Origin: Pelagibacteraceae bacterium AG-345-F21
GTDB taxonomy: Bacteria > Pseudomonadota > Alphaproteobacteria > Pelagibacterales > Pelagibacteraceae
Reading direction: 5' to 3'
Length of the DNA: 64,000 bases
Assembly: GCA_003281795.1 (NCBI GenBank)
Contig: QCAW01000004.1
Span: 1 to 64,000 of the forward strand
Shown in pieces: positions 23,517-32,868 of the stretch (position 1 is its first letter; each line of letters begins with the position of its first letter). The position numbers and the translations under genes are program-made. The notes beneath the pieces are model-generated. The model saw only the letters and a program-made list of their open reading frames with translations, made no database searches and was not told where the DNA came from.

Positions 23517-24275
23517 ATGAAGAAAAAAAACAAAAAAGTAAATGCAGCAATTTTAATTATTGGTAATGAAATTTTATCAGGTAGAACACAGGATAAAAAT
23601 ATCGCTTTTATAAGTAATTGGTTAAACTCTAACTGTGGAATAACAGTACGTGAGGTAAGAATTATACCTGACGTTGAAAAAACTATTATTGAAAATATCA
23701 GAGTTTTATCTAAAAAATTTAATTATGTATTTACCACTGGTGGCATAGGGCCTACACACGACGACATCACATCCCAATCTATCGCTAAAGCTTTTAAACT
23801 AAATTATGGATTTCATAAAGAAGCTTTTAGAATATTAGAAAGTTATTACGGAAAAAAAAAATTTAATGATGGAAGAAGAAAAATGGCCAAGATGCCAAGT
23901 GGAGCTAAACTAATATACAATCCATCTAGTGCAGCACCGGGCTTTATGACAAAAAATATCTTATCATTACCTGGTGTACCCTCAATCTTAAATTCTATGA
24001 TAGACAATTGTAAAAGATATTTAGTTAAAGGATTAAAGGTTCATAGCAAAACTTTAAATCTTTTTACTGTAGAGAGTAACATTTCAAAAAAATTAGAAAT
24101 TATACAAAAAAAATATATTAAATCCGTTGACATAGGCAGCTATCCTTTTTTTAGATTAGGGAAAATAGGAGTTTCAATCGTTTCAAGATCAACTTCAAAA
24201 ATAAAAATAAATCAAGTGCACAAAGAATTATTAATTCTTGCTAAATCTAAAAAAATAAAAATTTTAAAAATTTAA
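23517..24275 (+). CDS. CinA-like / MoaB-type molybdopterin-binding domain protein
   Basis: IGNEILSGRTQDKN and FTTGGIGPTHDDIT motifs. Confidence 0.85.
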   Translation: MKKKNKKVNAAILIIGNEILSGRTQDKNIAFISNWLNSNCGITVREVRIIPDVEKTIIENIRVLSKKFNYVFTTGGIGPTHDDITSQSIAKAFKLNYGFHKEAFRILESYYGKKKFNDGRRKMAKMPSGAKLIYNPSSAAPGFMTKNILSLPGVPSILNSMIDNCKRYLVKGLKVHSKTLNLFTVESNISKKLEIIQKKYIKSVDIGSYPFFRLGKIGVSIVSRSTSKIKINQVHKELLILAKSKKIKILKI

Positions 24276-25225
24276 ATTAAACTTAAAACTTCATCAACTT
24301 CTATTGAATTAATATCATTAGTTCCATGCAATTTTTTACTGTCTAAAATTCTTGTGTATCTATTTTTTGGTGCAAATTTTTCAGGATTTGTTGGACCAAA
24401 TAAAACTATCATTGGTACGTTCGCTAAAGACATCATATGCATTATACCATTATCAATTGAAACAGCAGTTTCTAACCTAGAAGATAAAGCTGTAACTAAA
24501 GCAGGACAAGATAGCTTAGAGTTAGCTTCAGGGAAAATTGCAGTGGGAACTTGGCTTTTAATTTTTTCGATTAAATTAATCTTATCTTTTTCTATAAAAA
24601 ATACTGGAACTTTATTTTTGGAAATAACTTTATTAGCCAAAGATGTAAATTTAAAAATCGACCAACTTTTTTTCCTATATTCGTTTCCTTGAGTAATTGA
24701 AAAACCAACGTAGTTAGAATTAGGAAGCAATCTTTTTGCTTCAGTCAAAATTTCCTTTGGCAGGGTATTAGTTTTGAAGTCCAATTTAATAATATCTTCG
24801 TCTAGAAATAAGCTTAAATTTTTTAGATTATCATAAGAATTAGTATTTATTTTTTTTGAAGAAAAAAAACCATTAAAAGTTCTAGAGTAAAAAGAAGAAT
24901 GAGGCACTCTCTTCAAAATTAAAGAATTTCTAATTTTGGTCTGTAAATCGATTATAAGATCAAAATTACCAAAACTCTTTTTTGAAGCTCTTTTTTTTGC
25001 TAACAAAAGGTGCCACCATCTAAAGCCAAAATATTTTAAACCCAAGTCAACTGTTTCTAACTTGATATTATACTCTCTTAATTTTCCATTAAAATGGTTT
25101 GTATGGGCACCTAAATAAAAAAACTTGGCTTTCTTAAAATGACTTTTTAAACTTAGTAAAAAAGGAAATAGTTGTATTGAATCACCCAATCCACCACCAG
25201 AATTATAAATTAGTATTTTTTTCAT
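24272..25225 (-). CDS. Glycosyltransferase family 9 (heptosyltransferase-like)
   Basis: N-terminal GGGLGDSIQLFPFL, C-terminal DNGIMHMMSLANVPMIVLFGPTNPEKF. Confidence 0.8.
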   Translation of the reverse strand: MKKILIYNSGGGLGDSIQLFPFLLSLKSHFKKAKFFYLGAHTNHFNGKLREYNIKLETVDLGLKYFGFRWWHLLLAKKRASKKSFGNFDLIIDLQTKIRNSLILKRVPHSSFYSRTFNGFFSSKKINTNSYDNLKNLSLFLDEDIIKLDFKTNTLPKEILTEAKRLLPNSNYVGFSITQGNEYRKKSWSIFKFTSLANKVISKNKVPVFFIEKDKINLIEKIKSQVPTAIFPEANSKLSCPALVTALSSRLETAVSIDNGIMHMMSLANVPMIVLFGPTNPEKFAPKNRYTRILDSKKLHGTNDINSIEVDEVLSLI

Positions 25226-25294: not shown

Positions 25295-25333
25295 GCCCTC
25301 GTTGTGAAATTGGTAGACACAAAGGACTTAAAA
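25295..25333 (+). repeat. tRNA-Leu(UAA) 5'-half fragment, copy 1 (attL-like)
   Basis: 39 nt gccctcgttgtgaaattggtagacacaaaggacttaaaa, one mismatch to the intact gene at 32007; no 3' half follows. Confidence 0.92.
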
Positions 25334-25372
25334 CACCAGGGATTCACAAACTTCATTGTCTCAGACGGTATC

Positions 25373-25390
25373 AGGTAGTCTCAAAACATT
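25373..25390 (+). promoter_or_regulatory. Shared downstream motif, copy 1 (aggtagtctcaaaacatt)
   Basis: Begins exactly 40 bp after the tRNA-fragment end, as does the copy-2 match. Confidence 0.6.
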
Positions 25391-25452
25391 ATTAATCCAA
25401 ACTTTCTTATTTAACCCTTCAATTAATAATGGAATTCAAGAAAAATTAATAT

Positions 25453-25502
25453 GTGCAGACTAGGTGCATACTGGGAGATAATTAGGAGACAGAGAGGGAA
25501 AA
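25453..25502 (+). repeat. 11-bp iteron block R1 (P'-arm-like)
   Basis: actaggtgcat (25459) actgggagata (25470) attaggagaca (25481), strict 11-bp period; first iteron 126 bp after the tRNA fragment end. Confidence 0.8.
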
Positions 25503-25519
25503 TTTGGTAAGATGATTTA

Positions 25520-26464
25520 ATGAACAAAATTTTACTTTTTCTTCTAATGATTTTAATTTTTTTTAATAATAAATCATTTGCTGAACCTGAAATAATTAAG
25601 ATTAATAATAAAAATATAGAAGTAATTAAATTTCAAGTACCTGATCAAATGTTTCCAGATAAAAAAGATGTTTTAGCTCAAATTCATTTTCCAAAAAATA
25701 ATAATAAAAAATTATCTTTAATCATTCACCAACACGGAAGTACTAGGGATGGTTTAAAATTTGAGAAATGGGGAGGTAGGACAGATGAATGGGGTAAAAG
25801 ATTAGTTAAAAAAGCTTTAGAAAGAGGTTACGCAGTAGCTCTGCTTGATTCTTTTTATAAAAGAAAATTAAAACCCACAGATAAACAAAAGTTTCCGAAC
25901 GCTGTCTTGATTAGCGAAGAACTTAACTTAATATTATCAAAGGATGAAAGATTGGATAAATCAAAATTTTTTTATACTGGTTTTAGCTATGGGGCAGGTC
26001 AAGTACTAAAACTTCAAGACAAAAGGTCTAGAAACAATTCATTTAAAGCAGCTGTGGCAGCAGAGCCTGGATGTAACATTGTATCTTTACCGCACAAATC
26101 AAATATCAAAACTTTAATAATTAAAGGTGAGGAAAGCCATTATCATCCCATTGCATGTCAGTATTATTATAATCTTATTAAAGAAATGGGTAATGAAATT
26201 GAATATGTATCTATACCGAAGGCAAATCATTTTTTTAGTTTAAACGGATCAATTGGAAAAGGAATGGCGGTTAATGGATGTTCAGACAATATAATTATAC
26301 GTTATCCTGATCGGACATATAAACTTGCAGATGGAACATCAATAAATAAGAAAGAAGCTTCAAGAAGGTGTTTAACAAAAGAATCTGGTATTGGTAAAAC
26401 AAGAGAGAAATTGGATGAAGCTATAAATATATCACTAAATTTTATTGATAATTATAATAGATAA
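25520..26464 (+). CDS. Secreted alpha/beta hydrolase, dienelactone hydrolase-like
   Basis: Signal peptide; LIIHQHGSTRDG oxyanion region, GFSYGAG nucleophile elbow, KANHFF histidine region. Confidence 0.75.
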   Translation: MNKILLFLLMILIFFNNKSFAEPEIIKINNKNIEVIKFQVPDQMFPDKKDVLAQIHFPKNNNKKLSLIIHQHGSTRDGLKFEKWGGRTDEWGKRLVKKALERGYAVALLDSFYKRKLKPTDKQKFPNAVLISEELNLILSKDERLDKSKFFYTGFSYGAGQVLKLQDKRSRNNSFKAAVAAEPGCNIVSLPHKSNIKTLIIKGEESHYHPIACQYYYNLIKEMGNEIEYVSIPKANHFFSLNGSIGKGMAVNGCSDNIIIRYPDRTYKLADGTSINKKEASRRCLTKESGIGKTREKLDEAINISLNFIDNYNR

Positions 26465-26496
26465 ATAGCTTATATTGATTTAATTGATATTACTTT

Positions 26497-26540
26497 GTGC
26501 AAACTAGTAGACAAACTGGAAGATAAAGAGGTAAAATTTT
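26497..26540 (+). repeat. Orphan iteron block R1b, no tRNA fragment nearby
   Basis: gtgcaaactagtagacaaactggaagataaagaggtaaaa resembles R1 and R3 (gctcaaactagagca...); degenerate 12-bp spacing. Confidence 0.6.
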
Positions 26541-26543
26541 AAT

Positions 26544-26618
26544 ATGAAAAAAATATTAGCCGTCATAATTTTAGGTTTTATTTGCTCTAATACAGTATGT
26601 CTATTGGATGAAAAATAA
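26544..26618 (+). pseudogene. Signal-peptide stub (24 aa MKKILAVIILGFICSNTVCLLDEK)
   Basis: Secretory-leader-like ORF ending right after the leader, immediately after R1b. Confidence 0.5.
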
Positions 26619-26635
26619 AGCATGGAAATGATTAT

Positions 26636-27409
26636 ATGTTAAAAAAACTTATAGCTATTTTATTTTTAAATATTTTATTTGTTAGCAATGTTAACGCTGG
26701 CTATGGATCAGGGGAACTCAAACTTTCAGATAATGCAGTTTATGCATTTCAAAAATATATTGAGGGCAAAAAAGGAAAACCTGAAAAATTTTTTATCTCA
26801 ATGGATGGCAAAACATCTCATTGGTGGTATTGTCCTTACCCAAAATGCACTCCGATGGGCGATACTCAAGAAGCAAAAAAATGTTCTAAAAGAGCAGGAG
26901 GTGTGGAATGCAAAACATTTGCAGTAAGAAGATCAATCAAATGGAATAATGGCGTTGATAAAAAAGCTTTAAAAATAAAATTTACCTCAAAAGACTCTAT
27001 CCAAGATATAAAAGATAAATTAACACAACTAGGTTTTTATGGAACAAGCAATGTAAAAGAGAAGAGCAAACCAAAAACATCAAATTATATTAAAAAAAAA
27101 TACAGCCTAAAAGATGAAAGACCTATTGCATTACAATGGGAAGGTTATAGCGATTTAATTGCAGGCACAATTAAGTTTGATGAAAAAAACTATCAAGGAA
27201 CATTAAAATTACCTTTACCAAACAATGATGGAACTTGTAATGGATCATACACACTTCAAGAAGGGGGTAATGGTGTATGGCAAATGACATGTACAAATAA
27301 TAAGGGAGCATCAGGAACACTTAAATGGGATGGTAGTGGCGGCGTTACTGGAATTGGTAGAGATTATAAAAATAAAAAACTTAAGTTTACCGTATCAAAA
27401 AAAAGTTAA
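26636..27409 (+). CDS. Secreted protein of unknown function
   Basis: Cleavable signal peptide (..FVSNVNAGYGSG), cysteine-containing WWYCPYPKC segment and Gly-rich C-terminus. Confidence 0.7.
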   Translation: MLKKLIAILFLNILFVSNVNAGYGSGELKLSDNAVYAFQKYIEGKKGKPEKFFISMDGKTSHWWYCPYPKCTPMGDTQEAKKCSKRAGGVECKTFAVRRSIKWNNGVDKKALKIKFTSKDSIQDIKDKLTQLGFYGTSNVKEKSKPKTSNYIKKKYSLKDERPIALQWEGYSDLIAGTIKFDEKNYQGTLKLPLPNNDGTCNGSYTLQEGGNGVWQMTCTNNKGASGTLKWDGSGGVTGIGRDYKNKKLKFTVSKKS

Positions 27410-27422
27410 TTAGAAGTCTTAA

Positions 27423-27896
27423 ATGAAAGCCTTCACTCTAATAGAACTCTTAGTCGTTGTAGCCATCATCGGTATTCTTGCAGCTGTAGGGGTTACAACA
27501 TTTAACGGGTTTCAGGAGAAGGCAAAAAAGAGAGCAACAGAGGCTAATCACAAAATAATTGCGAAGTATATTCAAAGTGAATGGATGAAGTGTCAAATTG
27601 GTGATGCAGCGATTATGTCTTTAAACGGAGTTAATCAATACGCATGCAATCAAAATATTTATGATCCATGGCTTGCGCTTGCATCTGTTAAAGTTTTAAA
27701 TACAAAAATTAAAAACGTTCATAAAGACGGTAATGCGCTTGTAAATCGAACATTTTATAAGTGCTATGCAAGTGGAACCTATGGTACAGAAGAACAAGGT
27801 CTTCACGGCGTTACTCAAGGAAATGCTAAAATTTATATTCAAAGCTGTATCGAGTCGAGCGGGAAACCAATCGAGACAATTATAAACTTATTATAA
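27423..27896 (+). CDS. Type IV pilin-like protein 1
   Basis: MKAFTLIELLVVVAIIGILAAVGVTTFNGFQEKAK prepilin N-terminus. Confidence 0.88.
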   Translation: MKAFTLIELLVVVAIIGILAAVGVTTFNGFQEKAKKRATEANHKIIAKYIQSEWMKCQIGDAAIMSLNGVNQYACNQNIYDPWLALASVKVLNTKIKNVHKDGNALVNRTFYKCYASGTYGTEEQGLHGVTQGNAKIYIQSCIESSGKPIETIINLL

Positions 27897-28430
27897 GTGA
27901 AAGCCTTCACCCTCATAGAACTCTTAGTCGTTGTAGCCATCATCGGTATTCTTGCAGCAGTAGGGGTAACAACGTTTAATGGGTTCCAACAGAAAGCAAA
28001 AATTAATACAACAAAACAAGCATTCACAACTGCAAAAAAAAATTTATCCATAGCTCTTTCAGCTTGTAGAAACGAAATAGGTTACAAATGGCAAAAAAAT
28101 GGAAATGATTGTTTATCAGGACCTGTTAACGGAGACACAATTGCTTGGGGGATTTATAATGATATGAAATCTGTACTTTATAAATCTAATGCTTACGACT
28201 CATCAGTAAAAGCAGTAGAGTGGAACCAAACATATGGATTTGCTTTTTGCCCAATATCTAGATCTGCTAAAATTCCTAAAGGACAAGTAGTCGTAGGATA
28301 TGGAAATAATGGTTCAAAAAACCATTGTAATATTGGAGGAGGGAATATGTCTTGTATTCGAGCAAATATAGGAGACAAAGATGGAAATGATTATTATCTA
28401 GATGCAGAATTTAATATCTGTGATTTTTAA
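27897..28430 (+). CDS. Type IV pilin-like protein 2
   Basis: GTG start directly after the pilin 1 stop; same prepilin block; Cys-rich divergent C-terminus. Confidence 0.88.
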   Translation: MKAFTLIELLVVVAIIGILAAVGVTTFNGFQQKAKINTTKQAFTTAKKNLSIALSACRNEIGYKWQKNGNDCLSGPVNGDTIAWGIYNDMKSVLYKSNAYDSSVKAVEWNQTYGFAFCPISRSAKIPKGQVVVGYGNNGSKNHCNIGGGNMSCIRANIGDKDGNDYYLDAEFNICDF

Positions 28431-28453
28431 CAAACATCAAGTAAGATTTATAC

Positions 28454-28999
28454 GTGAGATCAAAAGCATTTACCCTAATAGAACTCCTAGTCGTTGTAGC
28501 CATCATAGGTATTCTTGCAGCTGTGGGAGTCACCACGTTCGGTGGGTTTCAGGAGAAGGCTAAAGTGGCTGCAGTTAAACAAAACCATAAAGAAGTTACC
28601 AAATATCTACAAACTGAATTGCTTAAATGTGACATTGGTGGGGAACTTTCAATTCACACTAATGGCGGTGGTTACAAATATTATATTAACTGGCTTACTT
28701 GCGCTAGAAGAGGAGACGGTACAGTATTTCAAAAACAATTATTTGATAATATGGCTAACTACTTTCATTATGGAAAGAACTGGAAGAATCCATTTGGAAA
28801 TGAAGTTTGTATGAATTGTAATAATAAAGATGATGCTTTCGAATATTTTGGTGGAGCTCCAAACACAAATCAAGTTGGTAAAATGCACTGCTGGTGGACA
28901 GGGGGCGGCAGAGGAGGAGGCACAGGATACTGTGTTTCAAGATTTGGATCAGGATCGAACGATATATTACAGACAACTTTTGATGCCAATGGATATTAA
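28454..28999 (+). CDS. Type IV pilin-like protein 3
   Basis: GTG start; SKAFTLIELLVVVAIIGILAAVGVTTFGGFQEKAK; Gly/Cys-rich C-terminus. Confidence 0.87.
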   Translation: MRSKAFTLIELLVVVAIIGILAAVGVTTFGGFQEKAKVAAVKQNHKEVTKYLQTELLKCDIGGELSIHTNGGGYKYYINWLTCARRGDGTVFQKQLFDNMANYFHYGKNWKNPFGNEVCMNCNNKDDAFEYFGGAPNTNQVGKMHCWWTGGGRGGGTGYCVSRFGSGSNDILQTTFDANGY

Positions 29000-29528
29000 A
29001 ACTAATCGAGCTTTTACTCTAATAGAACTCCTCGTCGTAGTAGCCATCATTGGCATTCTTGCAGCTATTGGTGTTAATACGTTTAGTGGGTTTCAGGAGA
29101 AAGCGAAGAAATCTAGCTGTAGCAGTTCTCATAAACAATTGGTTAAATTTATTCAATTGGGTTGTGCTAACTGTTACGTAGGTAATAAATTTCTTTTAAA
29201 ATTAAGTTCTGGTGGTTTGAGTTACACAGAAATTGATAGATGTAATTTAGTAGATAGTGGAGATGGAGAAAATCTTAAAAATAGAATCCAACATCATTTT
29301 AAAGTTGAAACATATTTTAATAATTGGTGTAAAATTGATGGCAAACCTGATGGAGCTGGTAATTGTCAGGAGGCAGTTGCAAATGGTGGAAGATATGGAA
29401 ATGGATCAACAATATACGAACACGAATTACATTCTTGCGATAATTCTAATATATCAGATTGCAAAACTATAGTTGTAGAAACGAATTGTACCGATAGTAC
29501 TTTTATTAGAGATATAATAAAATTTTAA
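28989..29528 (+). CDS. Type IV pilin-like protein 4
   Basis: MDIKTNRAFTLIELLVVVAIIGILAAIGVNTFSGFQEKAK; in-frame ATG 28989 chosen over the longer tracked ORF (28830); 11-nt overlap with pilin 3. Confidence 0.86.
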   Translation: MDIKTNRAFTLIELLVVVAIIGILAAIGVNTFSGFQEKAKKSSCSSSHKQLVKFIQLGCANCYVGNKFLLKLSSGGLSYTEIDRCNLVDSGDGENLKNRIQHHFKVETYFNNWCKIDGKPDGAGNCQEAVANGGRYGNGSTIYEHELHSCDNSNISDCKTIVVETNCTDSTFIRDIIKF

Positions 29529-29530
29529 AT

Positions 29531-30016
29531 ATGATTAACAAAAAAGCCTTCACCCTTATAGAACTCCTCGTCGTTGTAGCTATCATCGGTATTCTTGCAG
29601 CTGTGGGAGTAACGACGTTCGGTGGATATCAAGAAAAGGCAAAGATCGCAGTTGTAAAATCCAATCATACCTTAGCTGTAAAAACTTTAAACATTCAGCT
29701 CCTTAGTGCGGAAATAGATAATGAAATTGAGGCCTGGAACTATACTACAAAAAAATGTGAAAAGAGAACAGCGCATGTAAATTATGATTCAAATGTAAGT
29801 TACGCCTTTAGCTGTTTAAACGAAGATCCCCAATATAAAAATCCATTTAATGAAGCAGATAACGAAGGAGCTTTTTGGCAAAATTGGGCTATTCCTACTG
29901 CAGATCAAAGAGGTAGAACAGCCTGCAATTATCGATCTGATAAGGACAGAATAGATTGTAATTCAAGATGGGGATCAGGAGCAAATGACTACCTTACAAC
30001 AATTATTAAGAGATAG
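29531..30016 (+). CDS. Type IV pilin-like protein 5
   Basis: MINKKAFTLIELLVVVAIIGILAAVGVTTFGGYQEKAK. Confidence 0.88.
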   Translation: MINKKAFTLIELLVVVAIIGILAAVGVTTFGGYQEKAKIAVVKSNHTLAVKTLNIQLLSAEIDNEIEAWNYTTKKCEKRTAHVNYDSNVSYAFSCLNEDPQYKNPFNEADNEGAFWQNWAIPTADQRGRTACNYRSDKDRIDCNSRWGSGANDYLTTIIKR

Positions 30017-30053
30017 GTTTAATCTCGATTAAAAAATTAATAGATATACTTAA

Positions 30054-30509
30054 ATGAAAATCAAAGCCTTCACTTTAATAGAACTCCTCGTCGTTGTAGC
30101 CATCATCGGTATTCTTGCAGCTGTGGGTGTTACGACGTTTAATGGGTTTCAAGAGAAGGCTAAAGTTTCTACCGTAAAAGCAAATCATGCTGCTCTTAGA
30201 ATTTATATTATAGGCGAATTACAAAAATGTAATCTTGGTGAAACAAAAGTTATGAGTGGTTATTTGACATGTTCAGAGAGATTTACTGCGCTTAAAGTGA
30301 CACTAGCAACAAGAGACTCTTTAAGTGGAAACTTTAAAAATCCTTACGATCAAATTACTGATGTAGCAGTTAAAATGAGCAGCAAGAATTATTGTAGATC
30401 AGATGAGGAGGGAAATAATATGCTTAATGATGATGGTTATTTACTAACAATAAGATCATGCACAAAAAGAGACACAACGTTAATTGAAGATAAAATTTAT
30501 ATAGAGTAA
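30054..30509 (+). CDS. Type IV pilin-like protein 6
   Basis: MKIKAFTLIELLVVVAIIGILAAVGVTTFNGFQEKAK. Confidence 0.88.
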   Translation: MKIKAFTLIELLVVVAIIGILAAVGVTTFNGFQEKAKVSTVKANHAALRIYIIGELQKCNLGETKVMSGYLTCSERFTALKVTLATRDSLSGNFKNPYDQITDVAVKMSSKNYCRSDEEGNNMLNDDGYLLTIRSCTKRDTTLIEDKIYIE

Positions 30510-30513
30510 CTAA

Positions 30514-30565
30514 TAGGATAATCTGGGAGGACTAGGAGCAAACTAGGAGATAGAGACGGAAAATA
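30514..30565 (+). repeat. Iteron block R2 (P-arm-like)
   Basis: taggataatctgggagg actaggagcaa (30531) actaggagata (30542) gagacggaaaat; first iteron 103 bp before tRNA copy 2. Confidence 0.8.
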
Positions 30566-30633
30566 AATTATTTTTACTTATTTAAAACACTTGTGTATTA
30601 ATATATTAACAATAATAACAAAAAGAACACAGT

Positions 30634-30672
30634 GCCCTCGTGGTGAAATTGGTAGACACAAAGGACTTAAAA
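30634..30672 (+). repeat. tRNA-Leu(UAA) 5'-half fragment, copy 2 (attP-like junction)
   Basis: 39 nt identical to the 5' end of the intact tRNA at 32007; flanked on both sides by iterons. Confidence 0.93.
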
Positions 30673-30711
30673 GCCGAGGGATAGAAGTTAAAGTCAGTCC
30701 ATAGTTGTCCA

Positions 30712-30727
30712 AGGTAGTCTAAAACAT
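30712..30727 (+). promoter_or_regulatory. Shared downstream motif, copy 2 (aggtagtctaaaacat)
   Basis: Begins exactly 40 bp after the copy-2 tRNA-fragment end. Confidence 0.6.
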
Positions 30728-30792
30728 CCCATAAAATTACAGAACTTCAATTTAGCTTTAAATTAATATTAAAAAATAAGGTTTATTATTTT

Positions 30793-30831
30793 GCTCAAAC
30801 TAGAGCAAGACTAGAGCATAGAGAGATAATA
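30793..30831 (+). repeat. Iteron block R3 (P'-arm-like)
   Basis: gctcaa actagagcaag (30799) actagagcata (30810) gagagataata; 127 bp after the copy-2 fragment end. Confidence 0.8.
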
Positions 30832-30847
30832 ATATATGGTTTTAATA

Positions 30848-31846
30848 ATGAAAAAACTTTTATGGATTATAGTTCTGGGTTTGTTGTTGAGCAGTAATGT
30901 TTATTCTAAAACAATAGTGGTAAAAGCTAATCCAGAAAAAGGTTTTCATTTTCCTTATTTATTAAAAACTTCAAAAAAAACTGTTGATGCTAATTATATA
31001 GTAGTAGAGTCAAATAACACTGGTGGTCATAATAAATCAATAAAAGGCATGACCAGTAAAGCTAAAAAATCTTTAGGTTGGGTTTTAGGTTCAAGCATTT
31101 CAAAAAAACTGAATTATCCAATGTTAATGCCTGTATTTCCAATGGCTACTAAAGAAATTGAAAAAGTACTAACTGATAAAAATAAATGGAAATATTATTT
31201 TCCTCAATTAGACAGCGATGTATTAAAAATAAATATCGATAAATATAAAAGGATTGATTTGCAATTAATTGCAATGATTGATGATGCTAGAGAAAGATTG
31301 TTAAAAGAAAATAATCAAAAAATTAATGAAAAAGTGATTATGGTAGGATTTTCATCATCATCTTTATTCTCTGCAAGATTTACTTTTTTACATCCCGAAA
31401 GAGTCTCTGTAGCTATTGGTGGAGGAATAGGAGGTTTACTACCTGTTCCAGCTGACAAAATTAATGGAATTGATGCAATATATCCAATCGGAACATACGA
31501 TTTTGAAAAAATTACTGGAAAAAAATTTGATTTGGAAGAATTTAAAAAAACTCCTCAATTTTATTATCAAGGCACAAAAGATAAATCAAATCCTTTTAGG
31601 AGAGGGGCTGAAGATTTAACAGATGAAGAATACGAAATAGTAAAAAAACTTTTTGTGGATGGTTTGCCTTTTGAAGACAAGCCTGTCTCCTTAAAAGTAA
31701 GTACCGCGATGTGGAATAATTCTCAAAAATATATTAATCAAATAGTAGATAATGTTAAATTTGAAAGTCCAAAAAATTTAAATCACGAAATAACTCCTAA
31801 AATGACAAGTAAAAGTACAGAATTTATTAAAGAAAATTTAAATTAA
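30848..31846 (+). CDS. Secreted alpha/beta hydrolase-like protein
   Basis: Signal peptide MKKLLWIIVLGLLLSSNVYS; GFSSSSLFSARFTFLHPERVS nucleophile-elbow-like motif; ATG 30848 preferred to 30836 for the signal peptide. Confidence 0.6.
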   Translation: MKKLLWIIVLGLLLSSNVYSKTIVVKANPEKGFHFPYLLKTSKKTVDANYIVVESNNTGGHNKSIKGMTSKAKKSLGWVLGSSISKKLNYPMLMPVFPMATKEIEKVLTDKNKWKYYFPQLDSDVLKINIDKYKRIDLQLIAMIDDARERLLKENNQKINEKVIMVGFSSSSLFSARFTFLHPERVSVAIGGGIGGLLPVPADKINGIDAIYPIGTYDFEKITGKKFDLEEFKKTPQFYYQGTKDKSNPFRRGAEDLTDEEYEIVKKLFVDGLPFEDKPVSLKVSTAMWNNSQKYINQIVDNVKFESPKNLNHEITPKMTSKSTEFIKENLN

Positions 31847-31894
31847 GTGAAAAAAATTTTATCAGTCATAGTTCACAGTTTAATTATAGGATAA
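31847..31894 (+). pseudogene. Second signal-peptide-like stub (VKKILSVIVHSLIIG)
   Basis: gtg start directly after the hydrolase stop, runs into iteron block R4; resembles the stub at 26544. Confidence 0.35.
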
Positions 31895-31935
31895 TATGGG
31901 AGAACTAGAGCATGACTAGAGCATTGGTAGATAAA
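31887..31935 (+). repeat. Iteron block R4 (P-arm-like)
   Basis: taggataatatgggaga actagagcatg (31904) actagagcatt (31915); first iteron 103 bp before tRNA copy 3. Confidence 0.8.
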
Positions 31936-32006
31936 TTAAAAAAATTTTACTTATTCCACTTGTTCAATTATAAATATTAGCATAAATACTCATGATATTC
32001 ACAAAT

Positions 32007-32092
32007 GCCCTCGTGGTGAAATTGGTAGACACAAAGGACTTAAAATCCTTGCCCTTTTGGGAGTGCCAGTTCGAGTCTGGCCGAGGGCACCA
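32007..32092 (+). tRNA. tRNA-Leu(UAA), intact, CCA encoded
   Basis: Class II tRNA with variable arm; anticodon loop CTTAAAA; acceptor GCCCTCG/CGAGGGC. Confidence 0.95.
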
Positions 32093-32100
32093 CTAAAACT

Positions 32101-32868
32101 ATGAACAAAATACATATTATTTCAGACACTAACAACAAATCAGTAAAAATTAAAAAATTTTTAATGAAGAAAATAAAAAATATTGAAATAAAAAAATCAA
32201 ACTTAGTTATTGTTATCGGTGGTGATGGATTTATGCTTCAAACTTTGAAAAAAAGTAAAAAAAAATCTTATTTATATTACGGAATTAATTCAGGAAATTA
32301 TGGATTTTTAATGAATAAATTTTCGAAGAAAAAAACTTTAAACAATATAACTAAAGCTAAAGTTGTTAAAATTTCACCTATAGAAATGAAAGTAAAAAGT
32401 AAAAATAAAATTAAAAAATGTTTAGCTATTAATGAAGTTTCTATTCTTAGGCAAAGTAGGCAGGCTGCATTTCTTTCTATTAAAAATGGGTATAAATATA
32501 TTATTAGAAAGTTGATTGCCGACGGTGTGTTAATTTCTACTCCGGCAGGAAGCACAGCATACAATATGTCAGTTCATGGTCCTATTTTAAATTTAAATTC
32601 AAAGAATATATCTATTGCGCCGATAAGTCCTTTTAGACCGAGAAGATGGAAGGGTAAAATAATGAGCGATAAGATAAAATTAATTATTAAAAATTTAAAC
32701 TCATCTAAAAGGCCAATTAGTGCTGTAGCTGATAATATTGAAGTAAGGAACGCTAAATCTATAGAAATTAAAATGAACCATCTTATCAAATTTAATTTGT
32801 TGTATGACACCAATAACAGTCTACAAAAAAAAATTAAGCTCGAACAATTAAGAAGGGAAATAAATTAA
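32101..32868 (+). CDS. nadK: NAD kinase
   Basis: IVIGGDGFMLQTL GGDG motif, YGINSGNYGFLMN, PAGSTAYNMS. Confidence 0.88.
   Translation: MNKIHIISDTNNKSVKIKKFLMKKIKNIEIKKSNLVIVIGGDGFMLQTLKKSKKKSYLYYGINSGNYGFLMNKFSKKKTLNNITKAKVVKISPIEMKVKSKNKIKKCLAINEVSILRQSRQAAFLSIKNGYKYIIRKLIADGVLISTPAGSTAYNMSVHGPILNLNSKNISIAPISPFRPRRWKGKIMSDKIKLIIKNLNSSKRPISAVADNIEVRNAKSIEIKMNHLIKFNLLYDTNNSLQKKIKLEQLRREIN

Follow-up and report, generated by a model that had tools for sequence, protein, structure and literature searches.

Introduction

Cis-mobilizable elements (CIMEs), described at the tRNA-Lys gene and related sites of Streptococcus, have kept their attachment (att) sites, lost their integration genes and build up tandem arrays in a tRNA gene together with an element that has an integrase (PMC5704250). 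Published passages on the ssrA islands of Dehalococcoides describe tandem islands bounded by transfer-messenger RNA (tmRNA) repeats, 15 of which have no integration module and are proposed to be cis-mobilizable (PMC3146451). For streamlined aquatic bacteria, the available passages on the additive flexible islands of Actinomarinales (PMC7771536) and Methylophilaceae (PMC10872708) report small cassettes with partial-tRNA repeats, and those on the tycheposons of marine bacteria report tRNA-bordered cargo elements of 4-200 kb with a tyrosine recombinase of their own (PMC10872708). Here we analyze a 64,000-nt stretch of the SAR11 bacterium Pelagibacteraceae bacterium AG-345-F21 (contig QCAW01000004.1, positions 1 to 64,000; hereafter the window), in which two integrase-less modules precede the tRNA-Leu(UAA) gene. 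This region is most probably a tandem array of two non-autonomous, CIME-like cassettes in the tRNA-Leu(UAA) anticodon loop, moved in trans by satellite integrases. SAR11 are the commonest bacteria of the ocean, and their streamlined genomes hold very few prophages or transposons. A 2007 analysis of SAR11 hypervariable regions detected no attC sites but recorded pilins and tRNA flanks for one of the regions (PMC2217521); in open papers, subscription papers being outside the search, we came across no description of an array of this kind, of its helper or of its arm sites in SAR11.

Results

Two 39-nt 5′ halves of tRNA-Leu lie on the forward strand of the window, an attL-like copy behind the native tRNA promoter region (25295-25333, with one mismatch at position 25303) and an attP-like copy that matches exactly (30634-30672), and both precede the intact, attR-like target gene (32007-32092), the sole match in the assembly with its own 3′ half. 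Iteron arms occur only downstream of the first copy, on both sides of the second and only upstream of the third, giving the order B-P′, P-P′, P-B′. A preliminary description made from the window alone had reported these halves, this arm order, module sizes of 5339 and 1373 bp and the lack of an integrase in either module, and all four statements proved correct. No further copy of the 39-nt half was found in the 975-kb assembly of AG-345-F21 at up to 3 mismatches (reversed control, 0), and an Rfam search for structured RNA at the halves matched tRNAs alone in the window. Conserved genes flank the array: on the left a glycosyltransferase-family-9-like (GT9) open reading frame (ORF; 24272-25225, reverse strand), whose stop lies 70 bp from half 1, a spacing like that at empty sites, and on the right nadK (32101-32868, forward strand).

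We searched for the site in 151 genomes of the same genus, AG-345-F21 included, which are draft metagenome-assembled genomes (MAGs) and single-amplified genomes (SAGs). The site is present in 110 of them, and 36 of these hold 2-4 tRNA-Leu copies, spaced 1.0-8.3 kb apart where the copies share a contig. Among 80 loci fetched from these genomes, a sample in which multi-copy loci are over-represented, 16 are empty, with a gap of 64-73 bp between GT9 stop and tRNA, and the window flanks joined across both modules align unbroken to all 16 (80-91%). The preliminary description would have been refuted by fragments and cargo fixed in all relatives with no empty or alternative site; instead, relatives offer both empty loci and different cargo between the same junctions. 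Three genomes (G006, G023 and G150) share a 5026-bp cassette at 99.94-99.98% identity, against 79% for their cinA-GT9 genes, and the identity of the cassette ends on the left where the tRNA half starts and on the right at the tRNA 3′ end; in G150 the cassette is preceded by another cassette, not by the native promoter. Two further pairs of near-identical cassettes, of 5378 bp (99.5% identical vs 78.5% for the flanks) and 1887 bp (99.2% vs 72-78%), behave in the same way. Judged by these alignments, one cassette has recently moved nearly unchanged between species with 79%-identical flanking genes, and the comparison of loci shows site-specific gain and loss, exact ends and interspecies transfer. 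The major facilitator superfamily (MFS) cargo protein of the 5026-bp cassette has no relative in viral contigs.

The cassettes share one anatomy, running from a tRNA half through a conserved ggattcac-like stretch, three set-I iterons, a set-II pair, the cargo and a second set-II pair to a promoter-like arm that exists as type A or B; as in lambda-type sites, a core is joined to arm-type repeats on both sides. Set-I iterons are AGTCTC repeats at a 10-bp pitch, with AGTCC variants, and the triple AGTCTCN4AGTCTCN4AGTCTC has 26 matches in 169 genomes, the reversed pattern 0. When 25 of these 26 triples were compared with tRNA halves (the G159 triple was left out), 23 lay beside a listed half, the G152 triple accompanied a half and the G043 triple a 12-nt core remnant. 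From the tRNA half to the first set-II pair, whose pitch is 11 bp, the median distance is 124 nt (range 123-140); from the second pair to the next half it is 103 nt (range 91-105). Set-II sequences vary among cassettes (ctagaag, ctaggtgc, ctggtacc, cttgtaca, ccagcaca and others), yet the two ends agree within a cassette, with a mean best 22-mer match of 18.44 across 25 non-redundant units vs 15.56 ± 0.30 on permutation (0 of 20,000). L043 and L056 are exceptions to this end-matching and look like recombinants with ends from different cassettes. Three units with a tRNA half and neither iteron set (L049, L054 and L062) were excluded from the iteron statistics; they are 6.9-kb ATP-binding-cassette (ABC) sugar-transporter units adjoining the tRNA, their half ends GGATTTAAAA, and they are possibly an older or different class.

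In the window, where all of these features lie on the forward strand, module 1 has AGTCTC-type set-I iterons at a 10-bp pitch in its P′ arm (25357-25382), set-II iterons at its left (25459-25490) and right (30531-30552) ends, and a promoter-like TTTACT-N17-TATTAA in a left arm of type A (30573-30601). Module 2 has set-I iterons of the AGTCC variant (30696-30720), set-II iterons at its left end (AACTAGAGCAAGACTAGAGCAT, 30797-30819) that match those at its right end (AACTAGAGCATGACTAGAGCAT, 31903-31924) at 21 of 22 positions, and, upstream of the functional tRNA, a promoter-like TTTACT-N17-TATAAA in a left arm of type B (31946-31974). Both promoter-like sequences are consensus matches only.

Scanning viral contigs for the tRNA half revealed circular elements of 7.7-8.9 kb (L113, L128 and L132, with 99- or 123-bp terminal repeats) that have the core and arms of the cassettes and in which a 545-aa tyrosine recombinase begins just after the P′ arm. 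Besides the integrase they encode a primase with archaeo-eukaryotic primase (AEP) and DUF5906 domains, a RusA-like protein and small uncharacterized proteins. Like P4-like satellites and phage-inducible chromosomal island (PICI)-like satellites, these candidate helper elements combine an arm-binding tyrosine integrase, a replication module with an AEP-type primase and a tRNA site within 7.7-10 kb; unlike them, they have no recognised capsid-remodelling or packaging gene, and they sit in the viral collection only by its own criteria. Integrated forms occur in two single-cell genomes: in AG-903-K07 (L144/L159) an element lies at tRNA-Leu between nadK and the cinA side, and in SAG-MED01 (L145/L160) integrase-less cassettes and an integrase-bearing element form one tandem array at tRNA-Leu. 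Few genomes encode integrases of the 545-aa type: 1 of 169 in the genus and 3 of 397 in the order. Most cassette P′ arms score 35-57 against satellite arms (shuffle maxima 24-34), compared with 16-32 against pelagiphage attPs; the fit to satellites is poorer for arms of the AGTCC type, those of the window's module 2 among them. Related circular or contig-borne elements (L139/L162, L163 and L164) have integrases 29-33% identical and different 10-bp iterons (acttcacact acctcacact).

For the integrase, an AlphaFold2 model (pLDDT 75, pTM 0.44) finds its counterparts in the lambda and Tn1549 enzymes (E about 1e-5); at the N-terminus, a strand-strand-strand-helix unit resembles P4-like arm-binding domains (3rmp and 3jtz; probability 0.99, TM 0.67-0.68). 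Residues R373, K400, R485, H508 and Y518, the catalytic set, are invariant in 11 relatives. Model and residues together predict a helper recombinase with arm-binding and catalytic domains as in lambda-type enzymes, the N-terminal match being weak by E-value. The expectation of a tyrosine recombinase near the same iterons was borne out on both circular and integrated satellite-like elements, in viral contigs and in single-cell genomes of relatives, and failed for the genome of AG-345-F21 itself: its assembly (85% complete) has one Phage_integrase gene, a 304-aa Xer-like gene on contig 11 that is unrelated. This only Phage_integrase-family gene of the assembly (G000:C11:16499-17014) adjoins glycosyltransferases and is perhaps the integrase of hypervariable region 2 (HVR2) in an earlier report (PMC2217521). 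Being Xer-like, unrelated and near glycosyltransferases, it was rejected as the helper.

Module 1 is composite. Its first 1.16 kb is common (70%) with the single-gene cassette L052, whose sole cargo is a homologue of the module's first gene product, a 314-aa secreted hydrolase-like protein (25520-26464, forward strand as are all window features below) with no Pfam or NCBIfam match. Internal set-II iterons of another cassette type follow (actagtagacaaactggaagat, 26500-26530), together with a vestigial signal-peptide leader ORF (26544-26618), in a stretch that matches the beginning (5′) of L048_1424 at 87% identity. The next gene encodes a 257-aa secreted protein (26636-27409) that clusters with proteins of cassettes L048_1424 and L065, and the module ends in six tandem type-IV-pilin-like genes (27423-30509; individually 27423-27896, 27897-28430, 28454-28999, 28989-29528, 29531-30016 and 30054-30509; PF07963 in the four tested) that resemble the pilin array of SAG-MED01 (L145). 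This succession of L052-like, L048_1424-like and SAG-MED01-like blocks therefore marks a fusion of several cassettes from which the intervening tRNA halves were lost, with the internal iterons and leader as the fusion scar. The preliminary description is refined accordingly: two sets of iterons exist, and the 5.3-kb module is a fusion. Module 2 carries a single gene, for a 336-aa secreted protein without Pfam or NCBIfam match (30836-31846), so that the window's cargo comprises two hydrolase-like secreted proteins, one secreted protein without family and six pilin-like proteins. The window pilins and those of L145:1419-5075, at the same locus in two genera, have near-identical N-termini and divergent remainders.

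Cargo elsewhere is diverse, and 95 of 96 cassette ORFs of at least 100 aa lie on one strand. Individual cassettes encode a type ISP/IIG restriction-methylation enzyme (L042), a type III-like pair (L040), a helicase-methyltransferase cluster (L056), a Mokosh-like helicase (L037), a polysaccharide lyase (L047), a dehydroquinate-synthase-like protein (L036), a peptidase-like protein (L060) and, by inspection, an MFS-type transporter-like protein (L033); many short secreted proteins without family are also encoded. Many cassettes contain a conserved signal-peptide-coding leader (ATGAAAAAACTTTTAGSGATCGTGGTTCTGGG...) that otherwise unrelated cargo genes have in common. The window has vestigial copies of it at 26544-26618 and 31847-31882, and it may provide a patch for homologous recombination by which composite cassettes are assembled.

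Another type of tandem array, with AGGGGCGTTCTGTTGCCAGGTGCCCC repeats and cargo bearing the same signal-peptide leader DNA, is present on other contigs of relatives (L150, L151, L153, L154 and L156); in L150, L153 and L154 the repeats stand at the end of a permuted tmRNA (ssrA) gene. Relics of the tmRNA-site repeat (gcgttctgttgccagttgcc) lie near the 3′ ends of tRNA-Leu cassettes in L033, L041, L053, L060, L061, L064 and L066, which suggests that modules move between array types. Tandem tRNA-Met copies (a 51-bp exact repeat) surround a gene with the same leader at L155:5150-6860, making tRNA-Met a possible third target site.

Discussion

The cassettes resemble CIMEs in retaining attL and attR, with a tRNA half and arms at both ends, and in having no integration or transfer genes: the window modules contain no recombinase, and none was recognised among the scanned cassette proteins. 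Their arms are homologous to satellite arms, yet no satellite gene relics were seen in their cargo, and the tandem arrangement with an integrase-bearing element in SAG-MED01 may reflect accretion. Unlike CIMEs, the SAR11 units are mostly single- to few-gene, have no parent-element relics, carry cassette-specific iteron pairs and are hosted by satellite-like elements rather than integrative and conjugative elements (ICEs). The Dehalococcoides islands differ in their serine recombinase and 3′-end repeats, and the passages available on them do not describe arm iterons (PMC3146451); nor do those on Actinomarinales and Methylophilaceae describe a helper enzyme, arm sites or an autonomous element (PMC7771536, PMC10872708). 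In contrast to tycheposons as presented in the accessible text (PMC10872708), SAR11 cassettes measure 1-8 kb and have no recombinase, whereas the satellites have one and reach only 7.7-10 kb. By analogy, the mode of action would be like CIME accretion and like that of the integrase-less ssrA islands (PMC5704250, PMC3146451), and the array is similar to the tRNA-repeat cassettes of Actinomarinales and Methylophilaceae (PMC7771536, PMC10872708). Integron cassettes likewise are tandem, same-strand and promoter-near, carry one or few genes each and depend on an enzyme in trans, but the SAR11 sites are double-strand, lambda-like att sites in a tRNA gene without IntI. The helper has no integron-integrase family match, the Xer-like gene of AG-345-F21 scores far below the cut-off, and the site consists of a core within the tRNA and arms of direct repeats, in which no attC was seen, attC folding not being scanned. 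The array is not an integron.

We propose that a circular cassette carries an attP in which the tRNA 5′ half would be the core, three set-I and two set-II iterons the P′ arm, and two set-II iterons and the promoter the P arm. A satellite tyrosine recombinase of the L113/AG-903-K07 type, with its putative N-terminal arm-binding domain, would be supplied in trans and join the attP to the tRNA gene by recombination. The former promoter and 5′ half would stay upstream as a relic while the cassette furnishes the tRNA with a new 5′ half and promoter, and the essential tRNA would therefore still be expressed. Successive integrations would stack cassettes. Set-II iterons would be the arm-type binding sites whose sequence decides which integrase lineage can move a cassette, set I would have its own role in the P′ arm, and some vehicle would presumably carry cassettes between cells.

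Alternatively, the units may be decayed satellite or prophage remnants, fixed CIMEs that are now immobile, their tandem structure a fossil. The preliminary description had left mobilisation in trans and decay side by side, and traces of the latter are visible: cassettes have no integrase, half 1 is mutated, module 1 is fused and has a vestigial leader, and several relatives (L082, L084) show arm scars without an upstream half. This explanation is nevertheless unlikely, given near-identical cassettes with exact att boundaries in species with 79% flanks, cargo free of leftover satellite genes, and both arms retained at fixed geometry with end-matching iterons. The tandem integration of two tyrosine-recombinase-type elements that the description favoured is supported by empty sites, exact att boundaries and the satellite recombinase, and mobilisation in trans is a well-supported inference. 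A different mover, the integrase of temperate pelagiphages at tRNA-Leu (PMC3861242, PMC6811365), has in its favour the same host group and a same or related target; HTVC105P and MedDCM-OCT-S35-C6 hold the identical 39-nt half beside an integrase, and HTVC109P a near match. These are, however, whole phages with another integrase, their arms have neither iteron set and score mostly like shuffles against cassette arms, and the L113-type integrase matches none of 50,697 phage records. We reject pelagiphage integrases as movers on the difference in arms and regard this origin as very improbable. Least probable is a swap of cargo by homologous recombination between the GT9 side and the tRNA-nadK side. 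That homologous exchange occurs inside cassettes is clear from composite ones, which have blocks and leader repeats in common, but identical cassettes have flanks only 79% alike, the same cassette stands behind a different cassette in L067, and identity stops at the att boundaries, on which ground homologous replacement of the whole locus was rejected.

As for set II itself, operators of a regulator rather than integrase arm sites would fit its position, which is a short way upstream of both the first ORF and the promoter-like sequence for the tRNA. We think this rather doubtful: one regulator would favour a constant sequence, whereas set II varies by cassette yet matches at both ends, it also occurs within the integrase coding sequence of L113, L132 and L144, and no regulator is evident among the cassette genes. 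The position upstream of promoters still counts against the array of satellite-mobilised cassettes that we favour, as do several further points. The window's first unit may be fixed, because half 1 is mutated and module 1 composite; against satellites, the AGTCC arms (type B) of module 2 reach a score of only 25, where the shuffle maximum is 27; and the match to arm-binding domains is weak by E-value (0.3). A helper with exactly the set-II sequence of the window was not found, in its own assembly or elsewhere, and in the viral collection the tRNA-half scan returned satellites, phages and a few B-arm contigs, and no circle of a non-autonomous cassette. The genomes compared are draft MAGs and SAGs.

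How SAR11 gain and lose flexible genes has been an open question since their hypervariable regions were mapped (PMC2217521). This locus offers a concrete, testable route, with a defined insertion site, ends, cargo that includes anti-phage restriction systems, and a candidate enzyme, and its end-matching iterons form a natural data set on arm-site choice by tyrosine recombinases. More tentatively, in a picture that we lean slightly against, SAR11 may have an integron-like cassette economy without integrons, in which rare satellite integrases would move recombinase-free restriction, pilin, transporter and secreted-enzyme cassettes from species to species, and the cassettes would pile up at tRNA-Leu and in parallel arrays at tmRNA and possibly tRNA-Met; matched iteron pairs would act as compatibility tags, and the cassette promoter would keep the essential tRNA alive.

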